Position numbers and translations under genes: made by a program. Of a stretch of 32,814 bases of DNA, positions 3,210-31,844 are shown piece by piece. The notes under the pieces were generated by a model. The model saw nothing but the letters and a program-made list of their open reading frames with translations, was not told the origin of the DNA and searched no databases. The stretch comes from Deltaproteobacteria bacterium (GTDB lineage: Bacteria > Desulfobacterota > Desulfobaccia > Desulfobaccales > 0-14-0-80-60-11), in contig QZIZ01000051.1 in the NCBI GenBank assembly GCA_003599195.1, forward strand, positions 1 through 32,814. The letters are read 5' to 3'. Position 1 is the stretch's first letter; every line of letters starts with the position of its first letter.

Positions 3210-3479
3210 TCAGATACACCCTCCGCAAAGACCGTCAATATCGCCTTGATGGAAGGCGCAGAAATCCCGGCTGCATTTGGTGCAACTATCAATAAACGCC
3301 TCCAGGCAATAATCGCACTGCCGCTGCTCCCGCAATTCGTAAGCAGCCGCGGCCTGCTCCGGGTCCAGCCCATGGTCCTGATGCAGATGATGAAGAATCT
3401 CGTCCCGGCAAATCTCCCTATTCCCCTGCCAGAGAGTGGCCTGTCCGCAATGCCGGCAGACCGCCTGGTAGCGTTGCAT
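3210..3479 (-). CDS. Cys-rich zinc-ribbon-like small protein
   Basis: An 89-residue hypothetical protein with five CxxC-type or C/H pairs: CRHC near the N-terminus, HHLHQDH in the middle, then CDYC, CTKC, CAFH and CGGC toward the C-terminus. The spacing suggests two or three zinc-binding modules, the last resembling a zinc-ribbon or B-box-like cross-brace. The start ATG at 3479 has GAGGA eight bases upstream. Nothing in the sequence points to a specific partner; nucleic-acid or protein binding is inference. It is convergent with the exported-protein gene. Confidence 0.7.
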   Translation of the reverse strand: MQRYQAVCRHCGQATLWQGNREICRDEILHHLHQDHGLDPEQAAAAYELREQRQCDYCLEAFIDSCTKCSRDFCAFHQGDIDGLCGGCI

Positions 3480-3548
3480 ATTGAATTCCTCGGGTGAAAT
3501 TTGCAGAAAGATTCAAGGTAGGCAGAGCCGCTTCCCAGTTATAAAACC

Positions 3549-3583
3549 ACTGATCACTGATCACTGATCACTGATTACCGATC
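3549..3583. repeat. Heptamer tandem repeat (ACTGATC)
   Basis: Five back-to-back 7-base units: three exact ACTGATC, then ACTGATT and ACCGATC. They lie in the short intergenic stretch between ribF and the Cys-rich gene. Each unit boundary contains the palindrome TGATCA. This may be slipped-strand variable DNA; no function is evident. Confidence 0.8.
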
Positions 3584-3617
3584 ACTACCCCCGGCCCTGC
3601 CCCCCGGCCCCTGGCTC

Positions 3618-7041: not shown

Positions 7042-8019
7042 TTATCTGAGATATCTCTCGGTTATATCACCCCTATTATGTCCAAGTTCACTGGACACCT
7101 GCACCAAGGCTTGCTCCCTGCCACTTCCATTTTGTTGGACCTCCTGGAACCGTTCCTGGGCATAGTTCCAGCGTAAGCCATGACTACCGGTATACTGTTG
7201 TCCGGAGTTGCCAGCCGCCGCTTTTAGCTGTAACCGGTACTGGTTGCGCAAAAATGTAAATTTACTATAGTAAGGATTTATATTATTGATTACCAATTCC
7301 CTAAAGTTTTCATAAGCATCTAAATGACGAAACTTTATAATGCGATCTTTTCCGCCCTTTCCATTAATTATATGGAATTGCCTGTTTCCAAGAAATTGTT
7401 CTGGATTTACATGATCCAATTCAGATATTCTTGCTCCAATGCTGTATTGGGCTGCCGCGATAATCTGACATACAGGATTGGAAATTGCTTTTATTAAGCC
7501 AACCGGATCTTGATAAGCTCTAGTTGCGACAGAGCGATCCAGTACATCTCTGGCTTCAATCTTTGCTGCCTGAATTTCAGCGGCCCAATCGTAATTAGCT
7601 TCTCCTCCATGATCCTTTTTCCACTTATTGAGGCCTACTGCCAGCTTTTCAAGGGCTGAACAGTAAGCATTAAATGATCCGTATTGGAGGCCATCGGAGA
7701 TTTTTGCTTCTAAAAAGCTACTCACAATATTAGGTGACAATTTTATAATGTCCTTAACAGAAAAATTATCTTTCCCATAACGTTGTGTTTCTATCCAAAC
7801 ACTCCGATACAAATTTGCTGTACCGAAGCTATGTATTCCCAGATTCAGGCCTAACTCGTGCGAGGTCTTGGCACCAGCGGACCTGGCCTTCTGTTTGGTT
7901 TTATGCTTCGACTGGCCAAAAACAGTCATATTTTCCAGTACTTGTGTGGCTTGGTATATGGGTGATCCGCGCATGACAAACCTCTCCCTATGATTAAAAC
8001 TAGGTTTAACATTCCGCAC
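7042..8019 (-). CDS. Second tyrosine recombinase (integrase-domain protein)
   Basis: A 325-residue tyrosine recombinase unlike the tRNA-Leu integrase. Catalytic residues are visible: Arg in GARISELDHV, Lys in NGKGGKDRIIKF, the HGLRWNYAQ box in place of HxLRHT, GHNRGDITERY with the terminal Tyr. This HGLR/GHNR pattern resembles integrases of integrative conjugative elements. Residues 1-120 form a core-binding domain starting with a basic stretch. It leads a two-gene unit with the HTH protein at 6526. Both catalytic and core-binding parts look complete, so a second, nested mobile module is likely. Confidence 0.88.
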   Translation of the reverse strand: MRNVKPSFNHRERFVMRGSPIYQATQVLENMTVFGQSKHKTKQKARSAGAKTSHELGLNLGIHSFGTANLYRSVWIETQRYGKDNFSVKDIIKLSPNIVSSFLEAKISDGLQYGSFNAYCSALEKLAVGLNKWKKDHGGEANYDWAAEIQAAKIEARDVLDRSVATRAYQDPVGLIKAISNPVCQIIAAAQYSIGARISELDHVNPEQFLGNRQFHIINGKGGKDRIIKFRHLDAYENFRELVINNINPYYSKFTFLRNQYRLQLKAAAGNSGQQYTGSHGLRWNYAQERFQEVQQNGSGREQALVQVSSELGHNRGDITERYLR

Positions 8020-9734: not shown

Positions 9735-10346
9735 ATGACCCCAACCCCCCAAAACCTGCCCGCCCGCTGGCAGCAAGCGCAGCTCAAGAAAGCGAGCGGC
9801 ATTATCCCTTTCTATCTTACGCCGGCGGAAGTGAGCCGCATGGCCGCAGCCGCAGCCGGTCGGCACCAGCTCCGGGACAAGCTCTTGATCCTCACTCTCT
9901 TTTGGACGGCGCTTAGGGTGAGCGAGGCCGTGAGCCTGACGCCGGCCATGATCTCCTACCACCAGGGGCAGCCCTTTCTCACCGTCCAGGGCAAAGGCAA
10001 AAAGAACCGCCTGGTGTCTTGTCCGGAGCCGCTGATCCACCAGCTACAAAGCTTCGCTTATAGTGAGGGCCTAAAGAGAGATGATCGGTTTTTCAAAATC
10101 ACCCGAGTCCGAGCCTGGCAGATCATCAAGGAGCTGGGGGAGCGGGCAGGGATCGCCAAGGAGGTGTGGCCGCACTTATTTAGGCACAGCGGGGCCATAG
10201 AGAGGCTGCGGCAGACCCGGAACCCCAAATCCCTGCAAATCCACCTGGGCCACAGCTCCATGAGCATGTCCATGCGCTACCTTACCACCCTTTCCGCCCA
10301 GGATGCCCTGGAGATCGAAAGCCAGGTGCAGTATCGAGAGGAGTAA
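9735..10346 (+). CDS. Catalytic-core-only tyrosine recombinase
   Basis: A 203-residue tyrosine recombinase consisting almost only of the catalytic domain; the SAM-like core-binding domain is absent. Active-site residues are all present: Arg in TALRVSEAVSL, Lys in VQGKGKKNRLV, HLFRHSGAI (HxxR), LGHSSMSMSMRY with the Tyr. The size is that of FimB/FimE inversion recombinases, and Xer-type relatives share the motifs. Two long inverted repeats precede it (9461-9491, 9554-9586). The start at 9735 follows weak AGGAGCCCT. Whether it inverts, excises or integrates DNA cannot be told. Confidence 0.88.
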   Translation: MTPTPQNLPARWQQAQLKKASGIIPFYLTPAEVSRMAAAAAGRHQLRDKLLILTLFWTALRVSEAVSLTPAMISYHQGQPFLTVQGKGKKNRLVSCPEPLIHQLQSFAYSEGLKRDDRFFKITRVRAWQIIKELGERAGIAKEVWPHLFRHSGAIERLRQTRNPKSLQIHLGHSSMSMSMRYLTTLSAQDALEIESQVQYREE

Positions 10347-10602: not shown

Positions 10603-10866
10603 GCTATCAAGTGATCTTGAGCCATAAGGCAAAAAAGCAGTGGAAAAACTGGACAAAACTACCGCCCGGAGGATAAGAGACCGCTTGCGAGAACTGGCGG
10701 CCGATCCTTACGATCATCGCTTATCCAAAGAGATGGAAACGGAGCCAGAAAAGCGTTATTCAAGGATCGGGGATTGGCGGATCGTCTACAGAAGTGGGTG
10801 AAGCTGAAAAAATTATTGACGCCGGTACGATTCAACACCGCAGCAAGGTTTATAAGGAAATAAAAA
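10599..10866 (+). pseudogene. RelE/ParE-family toxin, two frameshifts
   Basis: Joined over two frame changes the product reads VSYQVILSHKAKK, then AVEKLDKTTARRIRDRLREL, AADPYDHRLSKEM, RYSRIGDWRIVYR, then EAEKIIDAGTIQHRSKVYKE: a complete RelE-type mRNA interferase fold with the conserved basic residues and the GDWRIVYR strand. The first change lies at an A-run (A AAA AAG, 10630-10636) and needs -1; the second lies near AGAAGTGGG (about 10789) and needs one base removed. Only a 25-residue peptide is made in the GTG frame. It starts overlapping the antitoxin stop. I call it a decayed toxin, although the first site is a classical slippery heptamer. Confidence 0.75.
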
Positions 10867-10873
10867 GATTATC

Positions 10874-10901
10874 TGGCGGAGGTAGAGAGATTCGAACTCC
10901 C
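10874..10901 (-). other. tRNA-Ser-like 3' end fragment (possible att scar)
   Basis: On the minus strand a perfect 5-bp T-stem GGGAG/CTCTC (one G-T pair) with loop TTCGAAT, then TACCTCC, discriminator G and CCA, exactly the 3' 28 bases of a Ser-type tRNA. The matching 5' acceptor strand (GGAGGTA) is not found within 120 bases, so this is a fragment, as integrative elements leave at their attachment site. Confidence 0.6.
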
Positions 10902-10955
10902 GGTGAAGAGCTAAATTACGCCTGATAACCGTAAGGGTTTGAGCGGGGACGTGAG

Positions 10956-11108
10956 TACTCTGCGGAAATAACCAAGGAAGAGGTTCAAAGGATATTTGGG
11001 GAGGTGCTTCTTCCAGGAGCCGTATTAACCACCAAGCTCAGGATCATGCAAGTGGCCGATTATCAGTACCTCACCCTCGTCAGAAAATTGGAGCCTTCCT
11101 GGAGGTAA
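10956..11108 (+). pseudogene. Unidentified gene remnant
   Basis: An open frame without an early start codon ending at 11108: YSAEITKEEVQRIFGEVL, then TKLRIMQVADYQYLTLVRKLEPSWR. It reads like genuine protein (helical, polar), but there is no ATG/GTG near its beginning, only an internal ATG, and a stop just upstream of the frame. It is probably the C-terminal remains of a gene interrupted near the tRNA-like fragment. I do not recognise it. Confidence 0.3.
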
Positions 11109-11119
11109 AGATAAGCCAC

Positions 11120-11323
11120 ATGAAAAGTAACGATTGCATGAAAGTTATTCAAGGGAGTTACCGGAAAGGCTTTTGGTTCCATGACCGGGACGCCCACACG
11201 CAGGAAGAAATAGACTTCGCTAACGCGGCCTTCCGGGAAGCAGGCAAATATGATCCCCGATGGCTCAAGCTGATCTGGGACATAAAGGTAGATTCCAAAC
11301 CTGAGCTTCGGCGAGTTAAATGA
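11120..11323 (+). CDS. Tandem small-protein family, copy 1
   Basis: A 67-residue protein, first of four adjacent paralogues. The shared pattern is M-x-V-I-Q-G-G/S-[FY]-x-K-G-x-W, then xDRxA[YH]SxEEI, an amphipathic helix, and a tail [IL]WD[IV]K…KPELRRVK. Here it reads VIQGSYRKGFWFHDRDAH and LIWDIKVDSKPELRRVK. The start may be 11138 (MKVIQG), which aligns with the other copies; GGAGG at 11101-11105 is far from either. The stop overlaps copy 2 by 4 bases (ATGA). No signal peptide. Family and function unknown. Confidence 0.75.
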   Translation: MKSNDCMKVIQGSYRKGFWFHDRDAHTQEEIDFANAAFREAGKYDPRWLKLIWDIKVDSKPELRRVK

Positions 11324-11508
11324 TGAAAATGATAAAAGGCGGTTTTAATGAACGGATGTGGCAGCATGACCGCGGTGCTTACTCCGACGAGGAGATCGAA
11401 ATCTGGAACGCCAGATTAAAGCAGCTTAGCCAAAAGCACCCATGGTTACAGGATTTTATCTGGAAAATTAATCCCAAACAAAAACCCCATCTGGTTCATT
11501 TCACTTAA
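11320..11508 (+). CDS. Tandem small-protein family, copy 2
   Basis: A 62-residue paralogue of copies 1, 3 and 4: MIKGGFNERMWQHDRGAYS, DEEIEIWNARLKQLSQ, then FIWKINPKQKPHL. The Trp and the DR-x-A-Y-S-D-E-E-I core are kept; the tail differs (HLVHFT in place of ELRRVK), so this is the most diverged C-terminus. Translation is likely coupled to copy 1 through the ATGA overlap. The first Met could be 11320 or 11323. Small, charged, soluble; no recognised domain. Confidence 0.75.
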   Translation: MMKMIKGGFNERMWQHDRGAYSDEEIEIWNARLKQLSQKHPWLQDFIWKINPKQKPHLVHFT

Positions 11509-11522
11509 TAAAGGGATGGCTT

Positions 11523-11711
11523 ATGGAAGTCATTCAAGGCGGGTTTGTAAAAGGTCATTGGCAGTCCGACCGCGATGCTTACTCCGATGAGGACATCGAG
11601 GCCTGGAACGCTATCTTCCACAAAATAGCCGAAAAACATGGACCCGGATGGAAGATATTGATCTGGGATGTCAAAGCGGATCGCAAACCTGAACTTCGAC
11701 GGGTCAAATGA
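11523..11711 (+). CDS. Tandem small-protein family, copy 3
   Basis: A 62-residue paralogue, the cleanest example of the family: MEVIQGGFVKGHWQSDRDAY, SDEDIEAWNAIFHKIAEKHG, ILIWDVKADRKPELRRVK. Its tail is nearly identical to that of copy 1 (KPELRRVK). AGGGATGG lies upstream of the ATG, and a 14-base gap separates it from copy 2. The stop overlaps copy 4 by 4 bases. The alternation of coupled (1-2, 3-4) and spaced (2-3) joints suggests that a two-gene unit was duplicated (inference). Confidence 0.78.
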   Translation: MEVIQGGFVKGHWQSDRDAYSDEDIEAWNAIFHKIAEKHGPGWKILIWDVKADRKPELRRVK

Positions 11712-11968
11712 TGAAAGTCTTTCAGGGTGGCTTTAAGAAAGGTTCTTGGCTCCACGACCGGAAGGCCTACTCAGACGAGGAAATTGCCGAAACCAACCAA
11801 CGATTCAGACAGCTAATAAACCGCTATCCTGAATATCGCTCCTTTTTTGAATTTTTTCTCTGGGATATTAAGCCCGAACAAAAGCCCCGACCGGTTATTA
11901 CTCAGAGCGAAAAAAAGATTAACTTTTCGCCAGCATCAAATAGAATAAGGCAGAGCTTGGGTTCCTAA
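11708..11968 (+). CDS. Tandem small-protein family, copy 4 (C-terminally extended)
   Basis: An 86-residue paralogue: MKVFQGGFKKGSWLHDRKAY, SDEEIAETNQRFRQLINRYP, then FFLWDIKPEQKPRPV plus 22 extra residues (ITQSEKKINFSPASN…). It has a short insertion before the LWDIK motif. It ends the tandem array; about 175 bases with a palindromic operator then separate it from the AbiE-like pair. The extension may be read-through into formerly non-coding DNA. Function unknown. Confidence 0.72.
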   Translation: MMKVFQGGFKKGSWLHDRKAYSDEEIAETNQRFRQLINRYPEYRSFFEFFLWDIKPEQKPRPVITQSEKKINFSPASNRIRQSLGS

Positions 11969-12065
11969 AAATTAATCCATTAAATGCTCCCAGTAATAAA
12001 TCTGTTGATTCCCCAAAGTGATAGCATTAGCTATCGTTTTCATGCGCGCCGATCTCTTGCTGAGA

Positions 12066-12109
12066 ATATTGTTCATTAAAATAATTTGTTCATTTTTAAT
12101 GAACAATAT
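12066..12109. promoter_or_regulatory. Palindromic operator of the AbiE-like operon
   Basis: A perfect 16-bp inverted repeat: arm ATATTGTTCATTAAAA (12066-12081) and its complement (12094-12109), with a third GTTCAT half-site in the spacer and a fourth, ATGAAC, at 12116-12121. It lies 35 bases before the antitoxin gene. AbiEi-type antitoxins are known to repress their own promoter by binding inverted repeats, so this is the likely target. Confidence 0.75.
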
Positions 12110-12144
12110 GAGAGAATGAACAAAAATTTTTTTAGGGACAGATC

Positions 12145-13230
12145 ATGCCTCGTAATTTAGAAAATACCAGAGAATTGGTGGAAGGTTGTCTTGAGAATCT
12201 AAGAAAGCTGGATTGCTGCAAAGAAGATTACATCGCCGCGAAATGGGAGCAGTTTGGTGATGGCCTTCTGCGCCTATCGCGCGGTGGAGAGCAATTTACA
12301 TATCAAGTGGAAGCAAAACGTCATTTGACAACGGCCAAGGCAGCGGTTCTGCTTAATAAACTTAAGGCATTTGGCTTCGAGAATCGCCCCGTTTTGCTGA
12401 TGACGGATTTTGTGAATGAAAAACTCGCTGATTTTCTAAAGGAAAATAAAGTTGAATTCATCGACTTGGCGGGCAACACATATATAGACCGTCCCTCCCT
12501 TTTCATTTTTATAACCGGCCAGAGACGAGCGCGAGAATTGGAAAAAGCCACCCGAGCTTTTCAAGCTACCGGGTTAAAGATAATCTTTCTCTTTCTCAAG
12601 CGGCCGGAGGCCGTAAGCTGGAACTATCGCGAAATAGAAGAGGCCACAGGTACTGCTCTTGGAGGTATTGCCTGGATCTTGCGGGACTTGCGGGAATTAG
12701 GATTTGTGCGCCTCAAGGGCCGACAATTGCGCCAGCCCCAGAGGGAGTTGATTAATCGAAGGGAATTGCTAAACCGCTGGGAGTTTGGTTATGCAGAGAG
12801 ATTAAGGCCTAAACTTTTCCGGGATCGTTATCGAATCTCTGGAAGAATGACATTGAGTGATCTGCTAGAGAATATCCCAAATATTGAAGAGACTGACCGC
12901 ATTATGGTGGGCGGCGAACTTGGAGCTTCACTCTTGGTGGGTAATCTCCGTGCCCAATCGATAACCTTGCACACCGAGGAGCCTTTAAAAACCGCCACCA
13001 AGCTAAAGCTCCTTCCAGATCCCCAAGGGAATGTGGATATACTGGAGACTTTTGGAACTCTAAGTTCCTGGGAAGTAAAGAAGAAAAAAGGTTGTACATT
13101 GGCTGACCCCTTGCTTATCCGGGCGGAACTTTTCCTTCGCCCTTCGGAGCGCTTGAGAGAAATCGCTGAGGAAATTTACCAACAATTGATCCTGCCAAGG
13201 CTGGAAGATGAGCATGATCAGCCCCACTGA
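12145..13230 (+). CDS. AbiEi-family antitoxin-like regulator (type IV TA)
   Basis: A 361-residue protein of the AbiEi antitoxin type. Residues 1-140 form the nuclease-fold-like N-terminal part of such proteins (VEAKRHLTTAKAAVLLNKLK, KVEFIDLAGNTYID). Residues about 155-190 are a winged helix (YREIEEATGTALGGIAWILRDLRELGFV), and the C-terminal region (IMVGGELGASLLVGNLRAQSITLHT) matches the AbiEi C-terminal domain. AbiEi represses its operon and counters AbiEii. The gene starts just behind a 16-bp palindrome and overlaps the nucleotidyltransferase gene by 23 bases. Abortive-infection defence is the known role of AbiE; here it is inferred. Confidence 0.82.
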   Translation: MPRNLENTRELVEGCLENLRKLDCCKEDYIAAKWEQFGDGLLRLSRGGEQFTYQVEAKRHLTTAKAAVLLNKLKAFGFENRPVLLMTDFVNEKLADFLKENKVEFIDLAGNTYIDRPSLFIFITGQRRARELEKATRAFQATGLKIIFLFLKRPEAVSWNYREIEEATGTALGGIAWILRDLRELGFVRLKGRQLRQPQRELINRRELLNRWEFGYAERLRPKLFRDRYRISGRMTLSDLLENIPNIEETDRIMVGGELGASLLVGNLRAQSITLHTEEPLKTATKLKLLPDPQGNVDILETFGTLSSWEVKKKKGCTLADPLLIRAELFLRPSERLREIAEEIYQQLILPRLEDEHDQPH

Positions 13231-14047
13231 AAAAGAAGTCCTCAGAGACTTTGTTAGGGTTGCTCTGGAACATGACATACCGTTTGTGTTAGTAGGAGCA
13301 AGTGCCAAAATACTTGTTTTCGACAGTAGATATGACATCAGCCCATCCCATACCACCGAAGATTGGGATATCGCAGTCCAGGTTGATTGGCAGGCATTTG
13401 CAAAGTTAAAACAGGCTCTAACAAGTGGGGAAGAGCCTTTATTCACAGGTACTAATCAAAACGAACAACGCGTCAGACACAAACAAGGAATAGCCATTGA
13501 CATAATTCCCTTTGGAGGAGTAGAGGACGCCAATGGGGTTATTGTTTGGCCGCAAAGCGAGCTTCACCTTAGCGTAACGGGATTTCAGGCGGTGTATAAG
13601 AATGCTGAACTTCTCGAAATAGAGGAAGGGCTTAGTGTCCCTGTTGCTACTCCCCCGGGCCTGGCGCTATTAAAGATGTTTGCCTATGCAGAGCGGCATA
13701 AGGACAATGATCTGAGGGATTTCTATTCCATCCTTGATAATTATGACAAGGCTGGCAATGAAACGCGGCTTTTTGAGGAATTGGGGGAGTTCCTGGCCAG
13801 TGGGAAATTGGAATATGAGGATGCCAAAGCCTTTTTATTGGGGCTCGATGTACAGCGTATCATTAGTGTGCCGACTCGGAACAAGTTGCTCCAGATATTT
13901 GACCAGCTTCAGCTCGCCGATCCCTACGCCTTGTCTCTGGATCACCTGATTGGTCTTGGTGGCTCAGAGAAGGCAGAGGAACGCGCACGTCTCCGCATCT
14001 CTCGCCTATTTCAGGCCTTTCGGGATGGACTGACCCAAGAGGCTTAA
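13208..14047 (+). CDS. AbiEii-like nucleotidyltransferase toxin
   Basis: A 279-residue protein with nucleotidyltransferase motifs in order: FVLVGASAKILVFD (hG[GS] motif), TTEDWDIAVQVD (the DxD-type metal-binding acids) and GIAIDIIPFGG (third Asp). The rest is helical, with LALLKMFAYAERHKDNDLRDF typical of AbiEii/MNT-like relatives. In AbiE systems the toxin transfers nucleotides to tRNA or other RNA and is held in check by AbiEi; the substrate here is unknown. The gene overlaps the antitoxin gene, a clear two-gene unit. The start could be 13208 or 13214. Confidence 0.82.
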   Translation: MSMISPTEKEVLRDFVRVALEHDIPFVLVGASAKILVFDSRYDISPSHTTEDWDIAVQVDWQAFAKLKQALTSGEEPLFTGTNQNEQRVRHKQGIAIDIIPFGGVEDANGVIVWPQSELHLSVTGFQAVYKNAELLEIEEGLSVPVATPPGLALLKMFAYAERHKDNDLRDFYSILDNYDKAGNETRLFEELGEFLASGKLEYEDAKAFLLGLDVQRIISVPTRNKLLQIFDQLQLADPYALSLDHLIGLGGSEKAEERARLRISRLFQAFRDGLTQEA

Positions 14048-14073
14048 CCCCGGTAGAGGAGGGCAACCCAGGC

Positions 14074-14340
14074 CTATCTTGCCGGAACCCTGGACTTCGA
14101 TCTCTTCGATTTTTTTCTTGCTCGCCTGATTTTCGCTTGATAGGGTTCTGTCTCGTTTAATCCGTTCGAGGAGCGCCGCGGCGGGTTCGTATTCACGGCC
14201 TTCCCGGCGGGCCGACTCGGCTTCGATGGGACCAGCTCCCCCCGGAAGGCCTTGGCCAAGACGGCCTGGGTGAGTTTCTCGGCCCGGGCCGTGGCCGCGG
14301 CCACCCGGGCCTCAAGGTTGATCTTGATTTCTACTGGTGT
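14074..14340 (-). pseudogene. Type I restriction specificity subunit (HsdS) C-terminal fragment
   Basis: On the minus strand: VEIKINLEARVAAATARAEK, LTQAVLAKAFRGELV, then after a one-base frame change EAESARREGREYEPAAALLE, RIKRDRTLSSENQASKKK. The LTQAVLAKAFRGELV…AALLERI pattern is the hallmark of the HsdS C-terminal conserved helix. Target-recognition domains, hsdM and hsdR are absent, and the frame shifts after ELVP. It is therefore a remnant of a restriction locus, next to the AbiE pair, which fits a former defence island. Confidence 0.75.
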
Positions 14341-14598
14341 TTCCGACCGAGAGGAGGTCGGGTTAAAACAGAAGGATAAAAGGGCTCAAAATTTATGTTA
14401 TGATCTCCATATCGAATACGAATTAGTTGGATTTGAGCGGCGGATATAGAGCAGTTATACGCCAGACATGAAGAGTGATTTCTTGCGGGCGCTGCCGGAG
14501 AAACTCAGAGAATGGATATTATTTCTGCCCTACTTCTTATTTCCCCAGGCTCTTGCACAATTATTCAATCCCTTTTTGAGAAAAGATGCCGATTTTAT
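14341..14598. other. Gap with no supported gene
   Basis: I see only a doubtful 44-codon plus-strand frame (14468-14602) without a ribosome binding site. No convincing repeat or RNA. Confidence 0.5.
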
Positions 14599-29761: not shown

Positions 29762-29841
29762 CATGAGCCCCACGCCTGAGAAACGAACGAGACATCCGTT
29801 TCAAGTCAATTTCGCTGCCCCGTTTCCAAGAACAGGGCAGC
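29762..29841 (-). repeat. 80-base repeat, copy 1
   Basis: On the minus strand, about 90% identical (8 mismatches in 80) to the plus-strand copy at 31765-31844. The first 28 bases form a hairpin (GCTGCCC…GGGGCAGC). It lies in the inverted block, so it was originally in direct orientation to copy 2. Confidence 0.85.
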
Positions 29842-31764: not shown

Positions 31765-31844
31765 GCTGCCCTGTTCTTTGGATCGGGGCAGCGAAAATGA
31801 CTTGAAACGGACGTCCCGATCGTTTCTCAGGTGTGGGGCTCATG
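31765..31844 (+). repeat. 80-base repeat, copy 2
   Basis: About 90% identical to copy 1 (29762-29841, minus). It begins just after the tautomerase stop and runs directly into the truncated alcohol dehydrogenase. Confidence 0.85.

Follow-up and report, generated by a model that had tools for sequence, protein, structure and literature searches.

Gene content of the locus

The window, by which we mean the whole 32,814-nucleotide stretch of DNA that was analysed, carries four paralogous genes on the forward strand between positions 11120 and 11968. They stand in the order A-C-B-D and are named here by lineage (Table 1). As the initial annotation had it, the genes are adjacent and partly overlapping: the A-C and B-D joints are 4-base ATGA overlaps, and C and B are spaced by a gap of 14 bases. 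A search of the genome with gene B as the query recovered A, C and D at E = 9.5e-17, 4.5e-12 and 4.1e-10, respectively, and by this measure the relatedness of the four copies is far beyond chance and they are real paralogues. The identity of the copies to gene A ranges from 37 to 54%.

Table 1. Features of the array, its flanks and the second small-gene family. Positions are those of the window unless a contig is named.
Feature	Position	Strand	Remarks
Second integrase type	7042..8019	-	325 aa; also near A/B in G001 and G025 (37% identity)
Short tyrosine recombinase	9735..10346	+	203 aa; 58% to one on G025:C67; 56% to one directly 3' of A-B in G001:C143
orf0 remnant (upstream ~85-aa gene)	10933..11113	+	5' end lost, frame shifted; conserved with C128 857-1056 and G001:C95
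Gene A (copy 1)	11120..11323	+	67 aa; 61 aa if the start is Met7; core from 11138
Gene C (copy 2)	11320..11508	+	62 aa; ATGA overlap with A
Gene B (copy 3)	11523..11711	+	62 aa; A-like tail, against the B tail found elsewhere (such as PPELKIV)
Gene D (copy 4)	11708..11968	+	86 aa as read; family part to about 11896
AbiEi-like antitoxin gene	12145..13230	+	PF09952, E 2.3e-14; neighbour, outside the family
AbiEii-like nucleotidyltransferase gene	13208..14047	+	PF08843, E 0.009, below its cut-off; neighbour
Type I restriction specificity subunit fragment (HsdS C-terminal part)	14074-14304	-	Behind the AbiE pair
60-bp stretch	14399..14458	+	80% to C128 1866-1925; 79% to G005 L031 3583-3527
Second-family examples	G025:C67:1680-1862; C59:5714-5911

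Six residues (G, W, D, N, P and W) are invariant over 14 members of the family. The longer motifs first proposed as common to all four copies (GGFxKGxW, DRxAYSDEEI and WDIKxxxKP) hold strictly only in part, as copy 1 reads GSYRKGFW and DRDAHTQEEI and copy 2 reads GGFNERMW and WKINPKQKP.

The locus had been described as part of a mobile region, and this is borne out by the presence of tyrosine recombinases, a broken ParE-type toxin gene and AbiE genes; transfer genes are absent from the window. The ParE/RelE-type toxin gene (10640-10900) has a frameshift near 10795, with frame 1 ending in ...GDWRIVYRSG and a stop, and the typical end (EKIIDAGTIQHRSKVYKEI) lying in another frame. Towards its right-hand end, the window contains an 80-bp inverted repeat with 90% identity (29762-29841 and 31765-31844), its arms about 2 kb apart.

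A second array and exchange between the arrays

Another array of four genes, again in the order A-C-B-D, lies on contig C128 of this genome (about 1049-1823). There, gene C is frameshifted while A, B and D remain open, and D is 64 aa long. The upstream gene orf0 is broken in both arrays and is an 88-aa open reading frame in G001:C95. Positions 10933-11896 of the window match C128 unevenly, at 58-80% across A and into the beginning of C and at 87-98% from about 11.4 kb on, and dS between the window and C128 is 1.73 for A, 0.15 for B and 0.08 for D. Given this jump in identity inside C and the matching contrast in dS, DNA has evidently passed between the arrays (or between lineages of arrays), and the breakpoint falls within C. 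The tail of gene B is A-like (KPELRRVK) in both arrays, whereas its orthologues elsewhere finish in PPELKIV or a similar sequence, and this appears to be another sign of shuffling between the paralogues.

The DNA match between the arrays stops at about 11896, where the sister gene D terminates at 64 aa. The 86-aa length of D in the window is probably not native for this reason, its final ~22 residues having the look of read-through into inserted DNA. Beyond this point, a 60-bp stretch that lies within about 45 bases after D in C128 is displaced by 2.5 kb in the window by a block that holds the AbiE genes. Since the arrays part at about 11896 and this shared 3' flank is displaced to 14399-14458, the block from about 11897 to 14398 (AbiEi/AbiEii-like genes and the HsdS fragment) is most simply read as an insertion beside D that replaced its last codons, which would make the 86-aa length an artefact. 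A third copy of the 60-bp stretch lies near an array fragment in G005, where the corresponding gap contains a 110-aa gene instead. We abandoned the idea that the 60-bp stretch at 14399 serves as a recombination site repeated widely: the genome has only one other strong copy, and the stretch is readable as the terminal part of a coding sequence.

AbiE, a type IV toxin-antitoxin system, lies about 180 bases downstream of the array in the window, but it appears to have been inserted later, is absent beside the sister array, and has no homology or domain in common with the family. A functional tie of the array to the AbiE pair or to the broken toxin-antitoxin locus is not supported, because the sister array has neither adjacent to it and the AbiE block reads as an insertion into the 3' flank. 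Since the array would itself be a derivative undergoing decay and recombination, and not an independent defence system, its AbiE neighbour is no guide to its function. Nested inverted repeats on TTGTTCATT / AATGAACAA, at 12066-12131, lie directly before the AbiEi-like gene and are operator-like; such inverted repeats are expected of an operator for autoregulation.

Searches against known families and distribution

None of the four proteins had a match of note at the profile cut-offs in Pfam, NCBIfam, PHROGs or PADLOC, the last being a library of defence rather than anti-defence models, and a profile of the 14 members found nothing below E 0.06 among PDB sequences. The initial impression that the proteins fit no named family was thus upheld by every profile search. 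On the sequence evidence, the array genes are a real, undescribed family of small proteins.

Viral contigs gave no relatives in three scans with three alignments, and a phage collection gave none by tblastn; on these results, a phage origin of the family was set aside. A tblastn search of the PLSDB plasmids returned DinG fragments only, at E 0.4, and no relatives of the family. Within the order (probably Desulfobaccales), matches were obtained in five of 29 genomes, one of them a fragment only; these are the same 29 genomes as those of the class. Across the phylum, 395 genomes yielded one further match, in G098 from another order, and the 291 genomes of that order added nothing convincing. The one named record with a relative is JAKAKP010000130.1, a 'Deltaproteobacteria bacterium' MAG.

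Evolution and selection

Gene A has orthologues in G001 (87% amino acid identity), in G025 (69-70%) and in the sister array of C128 (70%). In the tree, A, B and D form clades (100/98, 91/91 and 97/94, respectively), and the placement of C is uncertain. The joints A-C and B-D are homologous, with 11271-11396 matching 11659-11784 at 72% (E 1e-10). The proposal that a two-gene unit was duplicated fits only these joints and the C/D part of the array. The split between A and B is older than the array, since other species carry distinct orthologues of A and of B, unaccompanied by C or D, and a simple doubling of such a unit therefore fails to account for the array.

Orthologue pairs with usable dS gave a dN/dS of 0.05-0.13 for A and 0.06-0.30 for B, although many dS values are near saturation and the ratios should be read as 'well below 1' rather than as exact. 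B compared between the two arrays gave 0.28, the two B copies of G025 gave 0.46, and the D pair gave 0.73, a value based on very few changes. Purifying selection acts on A and B, in agreement with the earlier proposal of selection on these proteins.

Genomic context in other species

The most informative context is a 35.8-kb contig, G025:C67, which is a MOBF conjugative element with TrwC (4.6e-87), TrwB (1.5e-109), TraU, TraH and TraG_N with SLT. It further encodes a Prim-Pol primase, a ParA-like gene, a short tyrosine recombinase and a type IIG restriction enzyme. The B-type gene (35058-35255) stands at the head of the TrwB-TrwC transfer operon, followed on the same strand by an HTH_17 gene, a coiled gene, TrwB and TrwC. 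G025:C67 is the locus at which the family was found as an accessory gene on an element with both a MOBF relaxase and a T4SS; the other family loci have integrases, ParA or Rep genes only.

The contig ends of G025:C67 hold a truncated second B copy and, close to the B-type gene, four genes of a second small-gene family. At these ends (L071 1-2000; L072 16700-17922) stand two diverged copies, 84-94% identical, of a module made up of the second family, B and HTH_17, and the end modules look as if they had been tandemly duplicated on a circular element.

On G025:C59, the surroundings of A and B include ParA, a wHTH gene and an integrase, and four genes separate A from B in G025. In G001:C143, A and B overlap by 4 bases and abut a short recombinase, 3' parts of which are repeated three times (84-89%) on one side of A-B (L026:190-415, 808-914 and 3377-3602). 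Single members of the family stand alone in G023 and G098; the copy in G098 is directly upstream of a Rep3-like initiator (a match just below the cut-off), with toxin-antitoxin genes nearby.

The proteins of the second family have 61-65 aa and follow the pattern MQLKVIQGG...RPELKVVK. Its genes are tandem on G025:C67 and also occur in G025:C59 and G023 (Table 1), and nothing was found for them in PLSDB. Like the first family, the second has tandem copies, overlapping neighbours and the same end motifs, but it is without the W-x-x-D-R and I-W-D-I-K centre, is likewise undescribed, and is linked to the first by profile comparison only (94% probability, E 1.4e-7, against 0.1% for a control small tandem family). 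Common descent of both families is likely, with the common part mainly the two ends. The same elements carry another undescribed tandem pair of 69-76 aa with the pattern DRRCPGxKSD...AGxxPExAR (L027:5290-5717 and L071:1859-2295); its kinship to the family was tested by profile as the control in this comparison and is absent.

Predicted structure and charge

The AlphaFold2 model of gene A has a strand, a long loop, helices at 28-42 and 46-51, and a final strand (pLDDT 74, with low confidence at residues 14-20), and that of gene B has helices only (pLDDT 67). Both models are weak owing to shallow alignments, and the helices are their sole confident parts. Searches of these weak models with Foldseek against PDB and BFVD, together with VIA-align 2, gave no fold match. 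The ribbon-helix-helix regulators TrwA and TraY have a strand-helix-helix fold, whereas the low-confidence model of A has a different predicted order of elements (strand, loop, two helices, strand), and the family has no Pfam match. Net charge across the members varies from -5 to +5, with most neutral or basic, and a shared DNA-binding role is therefore not implied.

Interpretation

Tentatively, the array in the window can be read as an accessory module, from MOBF-type conjugative or integrative elements of this order, that survives on the chromosome in a partly decaying state; we consider this the best of the readings, though possible rather than probable. The array most likely arrived with an element like those that bear the short recombinase, a step that we infer from the 56-58% identity of the recombinases and from their occurrence in four of the 29 genomes searched, three of which carry the family (present in five). 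The likeliest function of the proteins, though again less than probable, is as small subunits with an accessory or regulatory task in the region of such an element that governs transfer and maintenance, a function that we infer from context. Each protein, at about 60 residues, would consist of a helical core with strand-like ends (MKVIxGG and KPELxxVK), and any pairing of these strands is a guess based on the models. Co-translated pairs (A with C, B with D and A with B) may associate as heteromers, which is likewise a guess, and the subunits would act during the transfer or establishment of the element. The leading-region or establishment genes of conjugative plasmids (PMC11541004) are comparable as a class in being small and clustered near transfer genes, and a leading-region role is plausible in the light of that paper; the family differs in having no sequence relation to any family searched.

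In the main functional rival, the proteins would be expressed early by a conjugative element and act in counter-defence (as anti-restriction, anti-CRISPR or similar factors), with the tandem divergence reflecting an arms race with the defences of the host. The genes are indeed small, tandem, patchy and mosaic, restriction and Abi genes lie nearby, and anti-defence genes are known to concentrate in the leading region of plasmids (PMC11541004). Nevertheless, we hold this to be unlikely, because selection on A and B is strongly purifying rather than diversifying and because the B gene is on the relaxase side of G025:C67, relaxosome genes being assigned to the lagging side (PMC11541004). Most members are neutral or basic and not acidic, on which ground DNA-mimic anti-restriction was set aside, and the absence of a PADLOC match also points away from counter-defence, albeit in a library that holds defence and not anti-defence models. 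The small overlapping genes are paired and adjoin toxin-antitoxin genes both in the window and in G098, which could suggest that each pair is the toxin and antitoxin of a novel system. This is very improbable given that the two members of a pair belong to one family as paralogues, which is not usual for toxin-antitoxin pairs, that single members stand alone in G023 and G098, that four genes come between A and B in G025, and that gene C is frameshifted in C128 while A, B and D stay open.

It is also conceivable, if somewhat unlikely, that the array in the window is a relic without present function whose conservation stems from past selection on the element. The breakage of orf0 in both arrays and of C in C128, the replaced end of D in the window, the D pair ratio on its few changes and the frameshifted toxin gene all fit such decay. 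Against this, the window's copies of A, C and B are intact and retain the invariant residues, and the ratio for B between the arrays is low. A far more ambitious proposal envisages an unrecognised superfamily of ~60-residue proteins, in which several tandem families sharing their ends, forming combinatorial heteromers and diversified by recombination between paralogous arrays, would serve as an early control or counter-defence kit for the conjugative elements of this order; we regard this as highly speculative and improbable.

Mobile elements commonly carry small accessory genes that are undescribed, and the family is ordinary in this respect, its expansion and shuffling being modestly interesting. 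Its significance lies in tying the family, and a probable sister family, to the conjugative elements of a little-studied order, among which G025:C67 is an element on which a role in transfer could be tested.
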